From: Gammaproteobacteria bacterium
Lineage (GTDB): Bacteria > Pseudomonadota > Gammaproteobacteria > Enterobacterales > Kangiellaceae
Direction: 5' to 3'
DNA length: 64,000 nucleotides
NCBI GenBank assembly: GCA_013373545.1
Contig: JABXHQ010000103.1
Span: 1 to 64,000, forward strand
Of the stretch, positions 46,839 through 53,633 are shown piece by piece. How positions within the stretch are numbered: the first letter of the stretch is position 1; each line of letters begins with the position of its first letter. The translations under genes and the position numbers were made by a program. The notes beneath the pieces were generated by a model, which was not told the DNA's origin, did not search any database, and saw only the letters and a list, made by a program, of their open reading frames with translations.

Positions 46839-48086
46839 ATGCTTTGGTTTGGATTTATTATAGTTTCAATTTTTACCTTACTATTGCTTTTACTCCCGGT
46901 TATTCGTCAGCGATCATCGCGAGCCATTGATCGGGCGTCATTAAACAAGCAGTTATATCAAGAGCAGTCTCAAGAACTTGAACGACAACGCGCTAATCAA
47001 GAGATTGATGATGAAGCCTTTGTTGCTCTCGATTTAGAGCTTAAAAAGCGGCTGTTAGCCGATGCTGAAGCGAAGCAGCACCTTATTCAACAGAAACCGG
47101 CGCATCTGGGCATATACCGTGCGATGCTCGCGGCAATTCCCGTGATTGCTTTAGGCTTGTACTTTACTATTGCTGATTGGCGAGAAGTTTCCGATTGGTA
47201 TCAGTTACGAGAGCAGAATATTAACTTCCAAAACTCCGATCAAACCGATACGGCTTGGTTGGAAGCCTTGACGAACCGAGAGTTATTGCTGCTGCTACGC
47301 ACACGATTGTATGAGAACCCCCAAGATACCCGGGGCTGGATGATTTACGCATCTTCATTACAGCAATTAGGCGCTGAAGAAGCGGCAATCCAAGCCGTGC
47401 AACGAGCCATTGAAAATGAGCCTTCGAGCATTCCTTTGAAACTTAACGCAGCTCAGCTGATCATGCAGGGGAAAAACCCTCGAAACTATGCGGTTGCGGC
47501 AATGCTGGTGCGCAATGTTTTACAAGTGCAGCCGCAGCATGAAGGCGCGTTAACGGCTCTGGGTTTTATTTCTCGGAAGCAGGGCGATTATCAAGCAGCG
47601 ATCGACGCATGGGAATATTTGCTCGCTGAGCGCGCTAAGCGCGGAGAAGAGTTCGGTGCGGGTGCGCAAATGCTGCAGCAGCAAATTGAGCAGACCAAAG
47701 CGCTCCAAGCGCAGCAACAGCATATGGAAGCGATTGCCGGTAAACTTGACTTAACGGTCCAGCTGACACCTGAGCTGGCAGCGTCTTTAAACCCTAATCT
47801 CACGGTTTTCATCGTAGTTCGAGGCAGTGACGGGCAAGCGGCGCCAGTTGCCGTCAAGCGGGTTAAAGTGGCTGATCTGCCATTGCAGCTATCGCTTACG
47901 GATGCCGATGCAATGATCCCGGGACGAACCATTAGCGGGCAAGAGTCTCTCACCGTTTCGGCTCGGGTTTCCTACTCTGGTAGTCCAAAGCCATTGAACG
48001 GCGATTGGGTGTCGCCTGATATCAAGACCCAATACAACACCACGGAAGCGGTTGTTGTTAACATTTCGCAACAAGTTAAGTTGTAG
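46839..48086 (+). CDS. ccmI: CcmI (CycH-type) apocytochrome chaperone
   Basis: 415 residues. Two membrane helices at the N-terminus (about 3-21 and 88-106) around a cytoplasmic loop. Periplasmic TPR repeats (about 150-285) include AAIQAVQRAIENEPSS and EGALTALGFISRKQGDYQAAIDAWEYLL. A beta-rich C-terminal domain follows (from about 295), with LDLTVQLTPELAASLNPNLTVFIVVRGSDG. It presents the apocytochrome C-terminus to CcmFH. Last gene of the ccm operon. Confidence 0.93.
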   Translation: MLWFGFIIVSIFTLLLLLLPVIRQRSSRAIDRASLNKQLYQEQSQELERQRANQEIDDEAFVALDLELKKRLLADAEAKQHLIQQKPAHLGIYRAMLAAIPVIALGLYFTIADWREVSDWYQLREQNINFQNSDQTDTAWLEALTNRELLLLLRTRLYENPQDTRGWMIYASSLQQLGAEEAAIQAVQRAIENEPSSIPLKLNAAQLIMQGKNPRNYAVAAMLVRNVLQVQPQHEGALTALGFISRKQGDYQAAIDAWEYLLAERAKRGEEFGAGAQMLQQQIEQTKALQAQQQHMEAIAGKLDLTVQLTPELAASLNPNLTVFIVVRGSDGQAAPVAVKRVKVADLPLQLSLTDADAMIPGRTISGQESLTVSARVSYSGSPKPLNGDWVSPDIKTQYNTTEAVVVNISQQVKL

Positions 48087-48236: not shown

Positions 48237-48264
48237 TGTAACATTTCGTTTGACCCGCAGTCTT
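48237..48264 (+). promoter_or_regulatory. Possible ECF-sigma promoter before hvfA
   Basis: TGTAAC (48237-48242), a 16-base spacer, then AGTCTT (48259-48264), similar to ECF-type -35 and -10 elements. DUF692 peptide operons in other proteobacteria are often under ECF control. No good sigma-70 promoter with normal spacing is evident. Confidence 0.3.
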
Positions 48265-48323: not shown

Positions 48324-48701
48324 ATGAATAAAGATATGAAAAAAATCGCAGCATTGGTGAGCACTTCATTAGCCGCTTCATTGTCGGTTGGCGCCGCTAA
48401 CGCAGATGCGAACCCATTTGGAATTCAAGAGTTGGATGGCGGCTATCAAATTGCGCAGTTACTAGGCGAAGGCAAATGCGGTGAAGGCAAGTGCGGCGAA
48501 GGCAAAGACAAGAAAGAAAAGAAAGCCGAAGGCAAATGCGGTGAAGGCAAATGCGGCGAAGGCAAAAAAGGTAAAGCCGAAGGCAAATGCGGTGAAGGCA
48601 AATGTGGCGAAGACAAAAAAGAAAAGAAAGATAAAAAAGATAAAAAAGACAAAAAAGGTAAAGCTGAAGGTAAATGTGGCGAAGGTAAGTGCGGTAAATA
48701 A
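48324..48701 (+). CDS. hvfA: HvfA/bufferin-type precursor peptide with eight EGKCG motifs
   Basis: 125 residues. Start ATG 48324 has GGAG nine bases upstream. Signal peptide about 1-31 (cut after NADA). Then comes a short conserved spacer NPFGIQELDGGYQIAQLLGEGK. The rest is Lys/Glu/Gly-rich with eight Cys, all in EGKCG, arranged as four EGKCGEGKCG pairs separated by basic linkers. In Haemophilus HvfA such Cys are converted by the MNIO enzyme to thio-oxazole/oxazolone-type groups that bind copper. The enzyme gene starts immediately after the stop codon. The linkers grow toward the C-terminus (KKDKKDKKDKK), suggesting repeat expansion. Confidence 0.9.
   Translation: MNKDMKKIAALVSTSLAASLSVGAANADANPFGIQELDGGYQIAQLLGEGKCGEGKCGEGKDKKEKKAEGKCGEGKCGEGKKGKAEGKCGEGKCGEDKKEKKDKKDKKDKKGKAEGKCGEGKCGK
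48466..48698 (+). repeat. Coding repeat array for EGKCG pairs
   Basis: GAAGGCAAATGCGGTGAAGG-like units occur in four pairs at about 48469, 48529, 48577 and 48667. Synonymous differences are few, so the copies are recent or homogenised. Intervening AAAGAAAAG and AAAGATAAA runs encode Lys-rich linkers. Confidence 0.8.
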
Positions 48702-49550
48702 ATGACCCACAGCAAAGCCATTCAAGGTTCTGGGCTAGGATTGCGACGTGATATCATGTCGCAACTGGCCTCGAGCCTTCCTAATACGGTGGACTTTATG
48801 GAAGTTGCACCGGAAAATTGGATTAATATCGGTGGCTCTTTGGGGCGCGATTTTCGCGCCTTGACCGAGCGCTATCCCTTCGTATTTCATGGTTTATCAC
48901 TGTCAATTGGTGGACCGGAACCGATTGATGTGGAGTTAGTGAACAACATCAAATCACTGATGCAGCAGCATAATGTTACGATCTACTCGGAACATTTGAC
49001 CTATTGCAGTGACGGTGGTCATTTATACGACTTAATGCCAATTCCTTTTACTGAAGAAGCGATTAATTATGTAGTTAAGCGCATTCAGCAAGTTCAAGAT
49101 ATTTTAGAGGCGCCTCTAGTACTGGAGAACGCCTCATACTACGCTGCTCCGGCGCAAGAAATGACCGAGATAGAATTTGTCAATCAAGTGGTTGCAAACT
49201 CGGGCTGTGAACTCCTACTCGATGTCAATAACATTTATGTTAATGCTATCAATCATGGTTACGATCCCCTTGAGTTTCTACGCCAGCTCCCGGGAGAGCG
49301 TATTCGTTATTGCCATATTGCCGGGCATTATGATGAGGCAGATGACCTAAAAGTAGACACTCACGGCAGCAATGTTAAAGCAGAAGTTTGGGAGCTGCTG
49401 CACGAAGCCTACCAACTATTTGGCGTGTTTCCGACCTTGCTCGAGCGAGATTTTAACTTTCCTGAGCTTTCAGAATTGTTGCAAGAAGTCGCGATGGTCA
49501 AGTCAATACAGAATAAATTTGCTCAGCGCACACAGCCGGTTGCTTCGTAA
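48702..49550 (+). CDS. hvfB: MNIO (DUF692) peptide-modifying iron enzyme
   Basis: 282 residues, a TIM-barrel multinuclear non-haem iron oxidase. Family features are GLGLRRDIMSQL, DFMEVAPENWINIGG, HGLSLSIGG, SEHLTYC, LENASYY, ELLLDVNNIYVNAINHG, CHIAGHYD and DTHGSNVKAEVWEL. The His, Glu, Asp and Asn in these stretches line the metal site. It would oxidise the Cys of HvfA to a copper-binding heterocycle with a neighbouring thioamide-type group. It starts directly after the hvfA stop, so translation is coupled. Confidence 0.93.
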   Translation: MTHSKAIQGSGLGLRRDIMSQLASSLPNTVDFMEVAPENWINIGGSLGRDFRALTERYPFVFHGLSLSIGGPEPIDVELVNNIKSLMQQHNVTIYSEHLTYCSDGGHLYDLMPIPFTEEAINYVVKRIQQVQDILEAPLVLENASYYAAPAQEMTEIEFVNQVVANSGCELLLDVNNIYVNAINHGYDPLEFLRQLPGERIRYCHIAGHYDEADDLKVDTHGSNVKAEVWELLHEAYQLFGVFPTLLERDFNFPELSELLQEVAMVKSIQNKFAQRTQPVAS

Positions 49551-49552
49551 CT

Positions 49553-50311
49553 ATGAGCACAGCTAAATTTCAACAGGCGCAGATTGAATTTGCTCGTTAT
49601 TTGCGCGACCCCGACAGAGTACAAGCTCCCGCGGGTATAGAACAACGCCGCTTGGATGTTTATCGAGAACTCATCTTCAACAATATCAAAGGGTTCATAG
49701 AGTCGGGTTTTCCTGTGCTCAATACCATTGTTGATGAAACCGAGTGGCATGAGCTCATCTATCAATTTGTCCGTGATCACCGTGCTAAGTCGCCATATTT
49801 CGCCGAAGTCGCCCAAGAATTTTTACTGTTTCTAGAAAGCACTGATTTGTCGTTGAAATCGCGCTATCCGTTTATAGTCGAATTGGCGCATTATGAATGG
49901 GTTGAGTTAGCACTGTTAATTAAACCGCTGGATTGGCGAGAAGTGCGCTCAGGTGATTCTTTAGATTTATTAGCCACGCCTCTTTGTGTGTCTCCGGTAG
50001 CCTGGCCGTTAGCCTACGAGTATCCGGTGCATGCTATTTCCGACCAGTACCAACCGACTGAGCCTCCGGACGCACCGACTTTGCTGGTGGTGTATCGAAA
50101 CCGCGAAGAAGCGGTTAAATTCTTGGAAGTGAATCCATTAACGTTTCAGCTATTAAGCGTGTTGAGTGATGCGCCTGAACCGTTAACTGGGCAACAGGCA
50201 ATCGCTCAGTTGCAAAGCTTAGTGCCGCAGATTGCTGAAGAAGTTTTGCAAACCAATGGTCTTCAATTGTTATTAAACCTATTTAAGCGCAATATTCTAC
50301 TGCCGGCTTGA
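49553..50311 (+). CDS. hvfC: DUF2063 partner protein (HvfC)
   Basis: 252 residues. N-terminal DUF2063 domain (about 5-100) has QIEFARYLRDPDRVQAPAGIEQRRLDVYRELIFNNIKGFIESGFPVL and FVRDHRAKSPYFAEVAQEFL. The C-terminal half is winged-helix-like and resembles peptide-recognition domains. In related systems HvfC binds the precursor leader and delivers it to HvfB. It starts 2 bases after hvfB. The DoxX-type HvfD gene that often follows is missing. Confidence 0.9.
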   Translation: MSTAKFQQAQIEFARYLRDPDRVQAPAGIEQRRLDVYRELIFNNIKGFIESGFPVLNTIVDETEWHELIYQFVRDHRAKSPYFAEVAQEFLLFLESTDLSLKSRYPFIVELAHYEWVELALLIKPLDWREVRSGDSLDLLATPLCVSPVAWPLAYEYPVHAISDQYQPTEPPDAPTLLVVYRNREEAVKFLEVNPLTFQLLSVLSDAPEPLTGQQAIAQLQSLVPQIAEEVLQTNGLQLLLNLFKRNILLPA

Positions 50312-50368: not shown

Positions 50369-51088
50369 ATGAATAAAATGAAATGGACCTTAGCTGTTTC
50401 CAGCATATTTTTGTTAGCTTCTTGTGCGACGGGTAAAAATCCTCAAGATCCGTACGAAGATTTTAATCGTTCTGTTTATGCATTTAACCGCTCGATTGAC
50501 AAAGCTGTTTTACAACCGGTAGCGAAAGGTTACCAAGCGGTAACCCCCGATCCGTTAGAAACCGGGTTTGAGAATTTCTTCAGTAATATCGGTGACGTTG
50601 GCAATTTTATTAATAATTTATTGCAGTTCAAGATCGCTGATGCCAGTAGTGATGCCGGACGTTTTGTAGTGAATACGACTTTAGGGCTGGTTGGATTTTT
50701 TGATCCTGCCAGTGCCATGGGGTTAGAGAAACACGATGAAGATTTCGGCCAAACCTTGGCTGTATGGGGAGTTGAGTCGGGTCCTTATTTAATGCTGCCA
50801 TTTTTAGGCCCTTCAACGGTAAGAGATACCGTAAGCCAACCGGCCGATAACTACTTTGATCCGGTTCGACAAATTAACCCAGAAAGTGCCGAGTATTCGG
50901 CCAAGGCGTTTCGCTTATTAATCCAGCGAGTATTGCTCTTAGATTTAGAAGAACAGCTGGAAAGCGCTATCGATGAATATTCTTTTGTTCGTGATGCTTA
51001 TCTTCAGAATCGTCGTTATAAAGTTTATGACGGAGATCTTCCGTTGGAAGATTCCTTTGATTGTGATCCAGAGTACGAAGACTGCTAA
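50369..51088 (+). CDS. mlaA: MlaA/VacJ outer-membrane lipoprotein
   Basis: 239 residues. Signal with lipobox LLASC (Cys near residue 16). The MlaA domain is DPYEDFNRSVYAFNRSIDKAVLQPVAKGYQ, then FFSNIGDVGNFINNLLQFK and FVVNTTLGLVGFFDPAS, GLEKHDEDFGQTLAVWGV. It extracts misplaced phospholipids from the outer leaflet and passes them to MlaC. No mlaBCDEF is in the window. I chose the ATG at 50369; an upstream in-frame TTG at 50321 would delay the signal. It follows hvfC by 57 bases on the same strand. Confidence 0.93.
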   Translation: MNKMKWTLAVSSIFLLASCATGKNPQDPYEDFNRSVYAFNRSIDKAVLQPVAKGYQAVTPDPLETGFENFFSNIGDVGNFINNLLQFKIADASSDAGRFVVNTTLGLVGFFDPASAMGLEKHDEDFGQTLAVWGVESGPYLMLPFLGPSTVRDTVSQPADNYFDPVRQINPESAEYSAKAFRLLIQRVLLLDLEEQLESAIDEYSFVRDAYLQNRRYKVYDGDLPLEDSFDCDPEYEDC

Positions 51089-51468
51089 GCCATTGGCTCT
51101 ACGCAGTTAATTCGCTGAACGAAGGGAAGCGATGCGATAACCTAGGTGCCATTACTAGGTGCCGATTATAAGCTACTTAATACGACTCCAACCGTAACTA
51201 GTAACGGTAGCATCATCATAGGGTCGAGTTTGAACCAAGGCTTTGAAAGGTTAGATGGTTTATACATCGCTATTTCTCCACAAGTAAAACTAAGCTGCAT
51301 GAGCACTTGCGCGTCCTGCAAAACTTGCTGCACAGAACGTTTATCCTTTCACGTTGAATGTGACCACAGCTGTAGTTAACAGCAAGTGGTCGTACGAGTA
51401 TAGAAAATAGCCTGCAAAAGGTATGAGACTTCCGTCTCAATCTAGTGAAGTGATAACTGGGTCACAGT
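51089..51468. other. Gap after mlaA
   Basis: In these 380 bases I see no recognisable gene, only a possible tiny Cys-rich frame (51299-51379) and a 6-bp hairpin TGAGAC/GTCTCA with loop TTCC at 51424-51439, which could weakly end the PilZ transcript on the minus strand. Confidence 0.5.
51299..51379 (+). CDS. Possible 26-residue Cys-rich peptide (unproven)
   Basis: From ATG 51299 a 26-residue frame has seven Cys spaced as CASCKTCC, then ECDHSC. A GTG 51 codons earlier would extend it. No good ribosome site is present for either. Cys density is far above chance, and the operon next door makes a Cys-repeat metal peptide, but coding capacity is not shown. Confidence 0.2.
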   Translation: MSTCASCKTCCTERLSFHVECDHSCS

Positions 51469-51771
51469 TTAGTTGACGTTAGCGATTGAGCCGGCAATCT
51501 CGAAACTGCCATCATCTCGCTTATCGGAACGAATTACTTTCAGTTCGGCGGTTAAAGGTGGAAGTTGGGATTGCACTGAGCTTACTTTGACACTGAGTGT
51601 GCGGCCGACTTCAAAGGAGTGCTCACAGGTAAAAGCTACGCCGCCTGCACTGAGGTTTTTGCTGTCGCCAGTGAAAGTTTCACCTGAGTCAGGGTCGGTA
51701 ATTTCAACTTTTGCATCTACGAACATGCGGATAAAATCTCTTTTTTCTTCGTATTCTCTATCCACTGACAT
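51469..51771 (-). CDS. PilZ-domain cyclic di-GMP receptor
   Basis: 100 residues, a stand-alone PilZ domain. The cyclic di-GMP pocket is intact: RxxxR as EKRDFIRMFV near residue 10 and NLSAGGV near 38. No other domain, so it should act by binding a partner. Single gene, divergent from the response regulator to its right. Confidence 0.88.
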   Translation of the reverse strand: MSVDREYEEKRDFIRMFVDAKVEITDPDSGETFTGDSKNLSAGGVAFTCEHSFEVGRTLSVKVSSVQSQLPPLTAELKVIRSDKRDDGSFEIAGSIANVN

Positions 51772-51937
51772 CTTCTTAAGCCCCCGAAATGCTTTTACGT
51801 TGTATAGTCAGTCAAGGATAGTAGAAAATAATTACTCTTAGGTCAATCTTCTGGTGATATTGACCGATTGCTTGCTGAATATGGCCGATGTGCTATAAAA
51901 AGGCTTATCGACGACGAAGTTGCTGTGAGAAGTATAT

Positions 51938-53161
51938 TTGGACACTGACCCGCTTTTTTCCACATTCCAAGACCTGGACACTGAGAACATCACAATTCTA
52001 ACCATTGAAGACGATGTGCTGGTGCGCCAAAGCTTTGTAATGTACCTAGAAGATTATGGATTCTCTGTGTTGGAAGCCGATAACGGCTGTTCAGGCTTGG
52101 CTGCGTTCCGCCAGCATCAACCCGACTTAGTGTTGTGTGATATTCGTATGCCAGAGATGAACGGCATGGCGGTACTCGAACAGATCACCAAGGAAAGTCC
52201 TGATACGCCTGTAATAATGATTTCCGGCGCCGGCATGATTAATGACGTGGTTGAGTCCTTAAAGCTTGGCGCTCACGACTATATTGTAAAGCCGGTGACG
52301 GACTTAGATGTGTTGGGCCATGCTGTTAAGCAAGCCTTGAGTAAAAAAGCGCTAGAGAGCGAAAATCAACGCTTTAAGCATGAGTTAGAGCGCGCTAATT
52401 TAGAACTGCAATCCAACTTAGATGTGCTACGCGAGGATCAGGAAGCCGGGCGCCGGGCCCAATTGCAGTTACTGCCTCCGCCCGAACAAAAACTTGGAAA
52501 TTATGAATTTCTTCATACCGTGATCCCGTCGCTTAACGTCAGTGGCGATTTTTTGGATTATTTTGAAATTGATGAGCGTTATCTGGGCTTCTACATTGCA
52601 GACGTTTCTGGGCATGGTTCGGCATCGGCTTTTGTCACCATGATGCTTAAGTCATTATTCAATCAACCCATTCGGCAATATCGAGTGGCCAATGACCCTG
52701 CGATCTTATCGCCGGCAAAAGTGTTAGAGTATTTAAATCAAGAGGTGATGGCCGCTAACGTTGGGAAACATGTCACTTTATTTTACGGGGTTATTGATAC
52801 CCAAGATCATCAATTAACTTATTCGATTGCCGGGCATTACCCGCGACCCATAATGATGAGAGGGGCGGTTAAGGAGCTACTCGAAGTACGCGGTTTTCCA
52901 ATTGGGATGTTTGATTGGGCAACCTTTACCGATCATCAAGTTGACTTTGATGAAGCAATGTCATTGATTATGTTTTCCGATGGTGTGCTTGAGTGCTTGC
53001 AGCAAAATGAAGTGGTTCCCGAGCACTGCTTGCTTGATATTATTATTCGACCAAATTCAACAATACTCGAAATTACGCAGCAGCTAAACTTAGATGCACA
53101 AAATGGACTGCCGGATGATGTCTCGGTCTTTGTTGTGAGGCGCCATGACCATCAAAACTGA
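51938..53161 (+). CDS. Response regulator with PP2C (SpoIIE/RsbU-type) phosphatase output
   Basis: 407 residues. Receiver domain (about 14-130) has ILTIEDDVLVRQSF, phospho-Asp in DLVLCDIRMPEMNG and Lys in DYIVKPV. A coiled-coil linker (about 135-170) joins the PP2C-type phosphatase (about 185-400), with GNYEFLHTVIPSLNVSGDFLDYF, GFYIADVSGHGSASAFV and GLPDDVSVFVVRR holding the metal-binding Asp. It dephosphorylates a STAS partner when phosphorylated. The partner overlaps it by 17 bases. Start is TTG at 51938 after a GTGAGAAG site. Layout resembles Pseudomonas HsbR. Confidence 0.88.
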   Translation: MDTDPLFSTFQDLDTENITILTIEDDVLVRQSFVMYLEDYGFSVLEADNGCSGLAAFRQHQPDLVLCDIRMPEMNGMAVLEQITKESPDTPVIMISGAGMINDVVESLKLGAHDYIVKPVTDLDVLGHAVKQALSKKALESENQRFKHELERANLELQSNLDVLREDQEAGRRAQLQLLPPPEQKLGNYEFLHTVIPSLNVSGDFLDYFEIDERYLGFYIADVSGHGSASAFVTMMLKSLFNQPIRQYRVANDPAILSPAKVLEYLNQEVMAANVGKHVTLFYGVIDTQDHQLTYSIAGHYPRPIMMRGAVKELLEVRGFPIGMFDWATFTDHQVDFDEAMSLIMFSDGVLECLQQNEVVPEHCLLDIIIRPNSTILEITQQLNLDAQNGLPDDVSVFVVRRHDHQN

Positions 53162-53633
53162 TTATGTGCAAACTCAAAACTTTCATATCATCCGCTTCCA
53201 CAACGACGTCCGTTATGGCGATGTGGTGTCATTACAGCAATTCATTCAAAGCCAAGCGCCGCTGTCCAAGCCATACATCATCGACCTTACCAACTGTTCT
53301 CATCTTGACAGTACGGCTCTCGGAACTTTGGCGTTAATTGCCAAGCAAAGCCGCGAAGTCGAGCTCGACAAACCGATCATCTTTGTCACCCAGGGGACAC
53401 TTTATGAAACCATTATGGGAGTGTGTTTCGACTTGGTTTTTCAGCTTGAACTGGTAGCATCATCGCCGCTCGACCAATCTTTTTCGGCGCTGGATGAATC
53501 TGCGACTGAATCGGTTGAGAAGTTAACCGAAGCGGTAACCATGGCTCATCAATTATTGGCGGAGATATCCGAAGAGAATGAATTACAGTTTAAAGATGTG
53601 AACCGGTTATTAACCGGCCTTGCAAAGTCCTAG
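53145..53633 (+). CDS. STAS-domain anti-anti-sigma protein with C-terminal extension
   Basis: 162 residues. STAS domain (about 1-105) with switch region IDLTNCSHLDSTALGTLALIAKQ, the phospho-Ser being in LDSTALG. A 55-residue C-terminal tail is acidic and helical, similar to the tail of HsbA-like proteins. It overlaps the phosphatase gene, which is its likely partner. The kinase that would phosphorylate it is not adjacent; the RsbW-like protein at 18556-18978 is the only candidate in the window. Confidence 0.88.
   Translation: MTIKTDYVQTQNFHIIRFHNDVRYGDVVSLQQFIQSQAPLSKPYIIDLTNCSHLDSTALGTLALIAKQSREVELDKPIIFVTQGTLYETIMGVCFDLVFQLELVASSPLDQSFSALDESATESVEKLTEAVTMAHQLLAEISEENELQFKDVNRLLTGLAKS

Follow-up and report, generated by a model that had tools for sequence, protein, structure and literature searches.

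What does the small cysteine-rich peptide of an hvfABC operon do, and how far does it depend on the enzymes that alter it? These questions are raised by a locus in a 64,000-nucleotide stretch of DNA from a Gammaproteobacteria bacterium of the Kangiellaceae (assembly GCA_013373545.1, contig JABXHQ010000103.1, positions 1 to 64,000 of the forward strand; hereafter, the window), in which hvfA, encoding the peptide precursor, is followed by hvfB, encoding a multinuclear iron oxidase (MNIO), and hvfC, encoding a partner protein. The operon itself is one more member of a class whose chemistry has already been worked out, and its product is most probably a periplasmic thiooxazole peptide, a buffer for copper or other soft metals in envelope stress. 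Some relatives have lost the altering enzymes yet kept the peptide, so the peptide is possibly functional unmodified, and these enzyme-less relatives provide a natural experiment on what the modification adds and what the bare peptide does. Here we describe the gene content, gene order and family membership of the window operon, its leader motif and the conservation of its promoter, together with the orphan hvfA genes of its relatives.

The operon and its family membership

Judged by its sequence, hvfABC looks like a complete, working operon. The original prediction had placed an HvfABC-type copper peptide operon at 48324–50311, and these coordinates proved exact. The family assignment held as well, with the HvfA repeat domain (NF050137, 60.1 bits against 19.5), HvfB (NF003818, 433.8 bits against 360) and HvfC (NF050145, 291.4 bits against 142) all above the curated NCBIfam cut-offs. 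HvfB also matched Pfam PF05114 (351.5 bits) and PDB 3bww (E 5e-79), and HvfC matched PF09836, PF22106 and PDB 3dee (E 8.6e-15). The enzyme and its DUF2063 partner had been expected to follow the precursor without a gap; hvfB does abut hvfA, with the hvfA stop codon at 48699–48701 and the hvfB ATG at 48702, but hvfC starts at 49553, 2 bp after hvfB ends at 49550.

By these models the operon belongs to the known, experimentally studied class named oxazolin, captophorin or Buf_EGKCG; about 2,000 Buf_EGKCG/oxazolin precursors have been described (PMC12452194). Because HvfA scored 68.3 bits with NF050188, the Haemophilus influenzae-type HvfA equivalog model, under its curated cut-off of 95, we file it under the wider EGKCG family only, without the status of an H. 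influenzae HvfA equivalog. The Pfam search of the precursor gave no match, and it did not qualify as a BufA-type precursor. HvfB fell under the cut-offs of the BufB (271 bits against 310), ApyH, ChrH and MbnB models alike, MbnB being a distant homologue at 45 bits. Its DVNN and VDTHG motifs were invariant in 9/9 aligned sequences. In H. influenzae HvfB, loss of N175, D242 or H244 is reported to inactivate the enzyme (PMC13419390), and with the numbering matched via 3bww these residues appear to lie in the two motifs. The gene is the only MNIO gene in the window genome, a draft of 195 contigs. Comparison within the genus covered this genome and four further ones, one genome per species, and an hvfB orthologue was present in 5/5 (the window's own included) at 70–100% identity. 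A strict hvfABCX operon is not what was found, as the gene after hvfC is mlaA and a gene of the HvfX family lies on another contig.

The precursor and its paired repeats

The precursor had been predicted to carry eight EGKCG motifs in four pairs, which is exactly what its sequence holds. The motifs start at residues 49 and 54, 69 and 74, 86 and 91, and 115 and 120, so that successive pairs are 20, 17 and 29 residues apart from start to start, and Lys-rich linkers separate them. Every Cys of HvfA lies within an EGKCG motif. Six-frame translation of the window yielded eight EGKCG copies, all of them in the hvfA open reading frame, so their clustering is not due to chance. Recent expansion of the linkers had also been proposed, and the third linker does contain a period-9 array (48610–48657, 5.3 copies, 87% match); the eight motifs themselves comprise six synonymous DNA variants and so did not arise together by recent duplication. 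When linked precursors were compared in 10 pairs, drawn from four genomes of the genus and a fifth from a sister genus, pN/pS was 0.12–0.29.

Counting motifs among relatives, a check that the original prediction had suggested, gave 8 EGKCG in the window and 12, 9 and 14 in three congeneric species; in the fifth genome (G004) the gene is cut by contig ends. There hvfA is split between two contigs (L149 and L150), with the break inside the EGKCG repeat, and with breaks of this kind motif counts taken from draft assemblies may mislead. In a wider survey, limited to frames having four or more KCG, MNIO-linked precursors had 4 to 16 KCG, and their runs with exactly five-residue spacing comprised 132 single, 434 double, 26 triple and 1 quadruple. 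Pairs are thus the usual arrangement, with exceptions. Triple runs occurred in several precursors of genus g6, and named Kangiella records, which are like genus g6, were among the best relatives, in keeping with the assignment to Kangiellaceae.

The emphasis that had been placed on number and pairing stood in part. The capacity for several copper ions that had been suggested is published for a seven-site relative, with up to four Cu by native mass spectrometry (PMC13097082). A short fontiphorin-type substrate with two EGKCG repeats is reported to be modified, and one with a single repeat not (PMC13097082), and this published two-repeat requirement gives the pairing meaning. The number eight is ordinary, because paired EGKCG repeats in variable numbers, up to 58 Cys, have already been described (PMC12452194), as have Microbulbifer precursors with five to eight EGKCG Cys (PMC12538549).

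Features of the hvfABC locus in the window
Feature	Position	Strand	Remarks
ccmI	46839-48086	+	last gene of the upstream ccm cluster; context, outside the pathway
Predicted ECF-sigma-type promoter, TGTAAC-N17-GTC	48237-48262	+	-35 TGTAAC 48237-48242; -10 core GTC 48260-48262
hvfA	48324-48701	+	125-aa precursor, eight EGKCG in four pairs; NF050137 60.1 bits
Probable Sec signal peptide	48324-48404	+	residues 1-27; looks typical by eye, read from sequence
Exported leader DANPFGIQELDGGYQIAQLLG	48405-48467	+	NPF..GY motif
EGKCG pair 1	48468-48497	+	
EGKCG pair 2	48528-48557	+	
EGKCG pair 3	48579-48608	+	
Lys/Asp linker	48610-48662	+	locally expanded, period-9 array
EGKCG pair 4	48666-48695	+	
hvfB	48702-49550	+	MNIO (PF05114) peptide maturase, 282 aa; DVNN and VDTHG motifs intact
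hvfC	49553-50311	+	RRE/DUF2063 partner protein, 252 aa
mlaA	50369-51088	+	conserved neighbour, context; start codon inferred from sequence

Orphan hvfA genes in relatives without the enzymes

In the sister genera g2 and g3, HvfA-like repeats were found in 7/13 genomes and in none of the other 6/13, which are 75–100% complete. All seven genes (L158, L189 and L191–L195, from G007, G006, G010, G017, G005, G014 and G015) stand about 133–422 bp before mlaA, which is followed, as in the window, by a PilZ-like gene (recognised by eye), a response regulator and a STAS gene. A tblastn search of the seven stretches found no hvfB or hvfC. Upstream ccm genes were present at four of the loci (G006, G014, G015 and G017), and none were found within the stretch taken from G005, G007 and G010. 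HvfC was over the cut-off in 0/13 genomes of the two genera, and no MNIO gene was found in G006, G007, G010 and G017, whose completeness is 100, 100, 92 and 94%. The other three carriers (G005, G014 and G015) do have MNIOs; those in the stretches read adjoin other Cys-rich precursors, by eye of the 6/12-Cys type in G005 and of the DUF2282 type in G014 and G015.

Each of the seven orphan peptides contains 8–12 KCG and no Cys outside them, and both Cys codons are used. Their pN/pS was 0.14–0.35 (21 pairs), values to be read with the caveat that dS is often near saturation and that the repeats align ambiguously. In a tree of MlaA and the response regulator (for g6, MlaA alone; without the six hvfA-less genomes and genus g5), the seven orphan loci formed one clade with support of 1.00. 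Its sister group was the window genus together with g4 (0.99), and it was nested among hvfABC carriers. The simplest history would be a single loss of hvfB and hvfC. A second orphan copy (L190) was seen in G006, at a different locus of this MNIO-free genome and without the conserved promoter.

Orphans are not confined to these genera. Six further ones (L196, L197, L198, L204, L219 and L234) belong to another family, presumably Alteromonadaceae, and three of their six genomes are without an MNIO; a dus-like gene is adjacent in 5/6 and apt is near in 4/6 (names by eye). Their pN/pS was 0.17–0.41 (15 pairs), with the same caveat. Across the order-wide sample, 5/80 genomes with an HvfA repeat have no MNIO (G007, G108, G178, G190 and G221), and the published counterpart for Buf_EGKCG genomes is 67/2583 (PMC12452194). 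The same source states that unlinked precursors may be modified by distant MNIOs or stay unmodified. In our searches, which covered open-access literature, we found no description of the orphan clade, of the leader-motif contrast described below or of the mlaA neighbourhood.

A leader motif that follows the enzymes

The exported leader of the window precursor contains a GY motif. GY or GF was found at this place in 117/125 MNIO-linked precursors versus 1/15 unlinked ones. These counts cover 140 of 148 distinct precursors, the other 8 having been dropped because a contig end cuts them, and the unlinked loci were deliberately sought, so that their share is no population frequency. Fisher's test, computed with locus L134 as unlinked (117/124 versus 1/16), gave P = 4.7e-14, a value that ignores relatedness. 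Seven linked precursors without GY (L034–L040) all belong to family f8, presumably Pasteurellaceae. L134 (4737–9849) is a further exception to the leader rule: its precursor is without GY, and HvfB and HvfC genes follow downstream on the same strand, HvfB 3.8 kb away with three genes between. L224, the only unlinked precursor with GY, shares its genome with a linked copy (L225).

All seven mlaA-linked orphans and all six orphans of the second set are without the GY leader. Because these orphans come from two families, the loss of GY would amount to about two independent events. When residues of a fontiphorin substrate were replaced by Ala one by one, no single pre-core residue is reported to have proved essential (PMC13097082). 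GY may accordingly be just one of several contacts, or no more than a marker.

Taken together, the orphans and the leader contrast raise the possibility, to which we give slightly less than an even chance, that HvfA outlives its enzymes, that without modification the repeat peptide acts as a metallothionein-like protein of the periplasm and that GY separates the two kinds. On this reading, only the GY segment of the exported leader would have decayed, the promoter remaining recognisable and the paired KCG repeats intact. That the unmodified thiols themselves have a function is plausible, at somewhat under even odds. If the reading is true, a leader motif readable from genomes would be a cheap way to tell modified from unmodified peptides in databases, where orphan peptides are now mislabelled as modified metallophores of the RiPP (ribosomally synthesized and post-translationally modified peptide) kind; all three orphans run through the NCBIfam model 'oxazolone/thioamide-modified RiPP metallophore' passed it.

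A conserved predicted promoter and a candidate sigma factor

Aligned hvfA upstream regions have in common TGTAACA and then GTC 16 bases later, a pattern of the extracytoplasmic function (ECF) sigma factor type. TGTAAC occurred in 48/141 hvfA upstream regions, compared with a mean of 11.9 and a maximum of 20 in shuffles, and TGTAAC-N17-GTC in 26/141, every other spacing from 10 to 25 giving 0 to 2. Among hvfABC loci of the family, the exact pattern was present in 19/23 and the relaxed TGTAAC-N18-TC in 22/23. The mlaA-linked orphans retain the exact form in 3/7 and the relaxed form in 7/7, the second orphan copy has it in 0/1 and the other-family orphans in 0/6. The counts by group include many close relatives and hence are not independent, and one locus (L153) was scored in them as lacking the promoter because an upstream Met was chosen as start.

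In five genomes, the targets at which the pattern recurred were hvfA (5/5), a periplasmic-looking thioredoxin-like gene (3/5; loci L246, L250 and L257) and the gene for MsrP (2/5; L242 and L261). The sharing of the pattern by the latter two is no more than suggestive of a small envelope redox regulon. A match inside a sigma factor gene, in 3/5 genomes, was set aside because it lies within coding sequence and is explained by the protein. Over the locus, a sigma-70 scan gave 4 matches against 4.9 expected and a terminator scan 2 against 2.5 expected; Rfam and tRNA searches gave 0 matches each.

On contig C156 of the window genome (G000; L157, 3283–4826), the HvfX-family gene (181.9 bits, cut-off 80) and an ECF sigma gene are transcribed divergently, with a zf-HC2 anti-sigma gene next after the sigma gene, and the same arrangement was found in G001 and G003 (L247 and L249). 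Comparable control has been published elsewhere. A four-gene doxX operon of H. influenzae, in our view hvfABCX, depends on RpoE2 under hypochlorite (PMC7907618), and a DoxX operon of Neisseria is under sigma-E with an anti-sigma factor of the zinc-binding ZAS type, the promoter having the same spacing as the window's and a similar -10, CGTCTAAH (PMC2893595). The Caulobacter sigma-F motif is GTAACC-N16-CGAA (PMC3511200).

Proposed function and its alternatives

The product of the class has been assigned as 5-thiooxazole, replacing the earlier oxazolone/thioamide (PMC13097082, PMC13419390). The chemistry, copper binding and export of window HvfA are predicted from its homologues. HvfA would carry a Sec signal and then a short leader that is exported, and HvfC, the RRE protein, would present it to HvfB, which would turn the eight Lys-Cys sites into 5-thiooxazoles by four-electron oxidation. 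The modified peptide would then be exported to the periplasm, where its paired thiooxazoles would act as a buffer that sequesters soft metal ions, Cu(I) being the likeliest. Envelope oxidative or metal stress would probably induce transcription through the ECF sigma factor encoded, with its zinc anti-sigma, beside hvfX; by position and family resemblance, this sigma factor may drive the hvfA promoter. The post-translational copper-binding groups that the original prediction had expected are thus published for relatives, as 5-thiooxazoles, while the regulatory evidence points to a redox-type ECF sigma factor.

Several observations count against this scheme. Linked loci outside the family have the promoter in exact form in 4/101 and in relaxed form in 8/101. 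A genome-wide search of five genomes gave 29 matches versus 30 in a reversed control, and because the total equals the control only the recurrence of matches counts. The hvfX–sigma intergenic regions of three genomes contained no TGTAAC-N17-GTC, so autoregulation was not seen, and the Neisseria sigma-E -35, GTMAGBWTT, is unlike TGTAACA (PMC2893595). HvfX is not a specific marker of the pathway in the family, because it was found in 40/40 genomes (39 over the cut-off), including those without HvfA or HvfBC. In addition, the Microbulbifer homologue is reported as undetected in the proteome, with copper added or not (PMC12538549).

It is possible, though we consider it rather unlikely, that the bare thiol peptide is the core function, a periplasmic metallothionein-like or thiol buffer, with MNIO modification an optional upgrade that would change metal preference or redox stability. 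The lone hvfA kept beside mlaA in 7/13 sister-genera genomes would fit, with its intact repeats, its relaxed promoter in all seven, its low pN/pS, its single clade among hvfABC carriers, the four genomes without any MNIO and the lack of HvfC over the cut-off in all 13. The six genomes without an HvfA match, however, indicate that the peptide is dispensable or being lost there, the exact promoter persists in only three of the seven orphans, and some further enzyme could modify orphans, three of whose genomes have other MNIOs; near-saturated dS and ambiguous repeat alignment also weaken the selection values. The window operon has its enzymes, and they are conserved, so that there the modification does matter. 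Less probable still is a peptide that serves mainly as a sacrificial sink at the envelope for oxidants such as hypochlorous acid, with copper binding incidental. The position of hvfX beside the ECF and zinc anti-sigma genes, the promoter pattern at MsrP and the thioredoxin-like gene, the RpoE2-dependent operon of H. influenzae and the Microbulbifer peptide that went undetected with or without copper all agree with such a role, but modified homologues bind Cu(I), the seven-site relative fontiphorin taking up to four Cu in vitro by native mass spectrometry (PMC13097082), and bufferins, a neighbouring class, improve growth under copper stress (PMC12452194); the promoter pattern, moreover, is overall no commoner than in the control.

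We regard as very improbable a chalkophore that scavenges copper for nutrition in the manner of methanobactin. The enzyme chemistry is related, MbnB being the distant homologue mentioned above, but the MbnB model is a far poorer fit than those of HvfB and HvfC, and no transporter, MbnC-type partner or peptidase was among the flanking genes identified. That the operon is decaying or unexpressed is hardly credible: a homologue undetected in laboratory culture, as in Microbulbifer, would agree with it, and against it stand three intact, near-abutting frames, orthologues in 5/5 genomes of the genus, low pN/pS both within the genus and in a sister genus, and the conserved promoter. A periplasmic peptide buffering copper or other soft metals remains our preferred reading of the window operon.

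Neighbouring genes

The flanking genes identified were ccmF, ccmH, ccmI, mlaA, a SpoIIE/response-regulator gene and a STAS gene, with ccmG recognised by eye. After hvfABC (50369–53633) come mlaA, a PilZ-like gene on the opposite strand, and the response regulator/SpoIIE and STAS genes. This order from mlaA to STAS is partly common to Microbulbifer and other gammaproteobacteria and is probably an inherited gene order. Near hvfABC in 80 named loci, we counted DoxX-like genes (28), mlaA (26), hrpA-like (24), response regulator (20), dus-like (19), STAS (17) and transaldolase-like genes (15); many of these loci are shortened by contig ends, and the hrpA, dus and transaldolase names were given by eye. 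A functional link to mlaA was rejected, other genes being comparably frequent nearby, and apart from DoxX the neighbourhood reads as inherited order. A functional link to the ccm cluster was rejected too, as, Kangiella records aside, a CcmG-like match was the most that any of these 80 loci gave.

Comparison with known systems

Bufferins (BufABC) resemble the window system in placing an MNIO and a DUF2063 partner on an exported Cys peptide, and sigma-factor genes occur in some Buf1 clusters (PMC12452194). Their precursors are of another family, of the DUF2282 or 6/12-Cys type, and the BufB score of window HvfB is below the cut-off, as given above. MmrABC/bulbicupramide of Microbulbifer shares with it a three-gene cluster and has a conserved leader and a range of EGKCG Cys that includes the window's eight. 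The six Microbulbifer loci fetched have mlaA downstream in 6/6, as in the window; unlike MmrABC, the window operon has the ccm cluster upstream, and the linkers also differ. With the captophorins fontiphorin (FonABC) and gonophorin it has in common EGKCG repeats and the MNIO with its DUF2063/RRE partner, and by prediction 5-thiooxazoles and Cu(I) binding, fontiphorin having seven sites versus eight in the window system. HvfABC(X) of H. influenzae (oxazolin) shares the A-B-C order, the EGKCG pairs, the HvfB and HvfC families and, probably, the Sec signal and control of the ECF/ZAS type. It has six sites where the window has eight, and the window HvfA scores 68 bits where the H. influenzae HvfA equivalog cut-off is 95. 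Unlike in HvfABC(X), the window HvfX is encoded elsewhere in the genome, and the window leader has NPF..GY, which the seven f8 loci are without.

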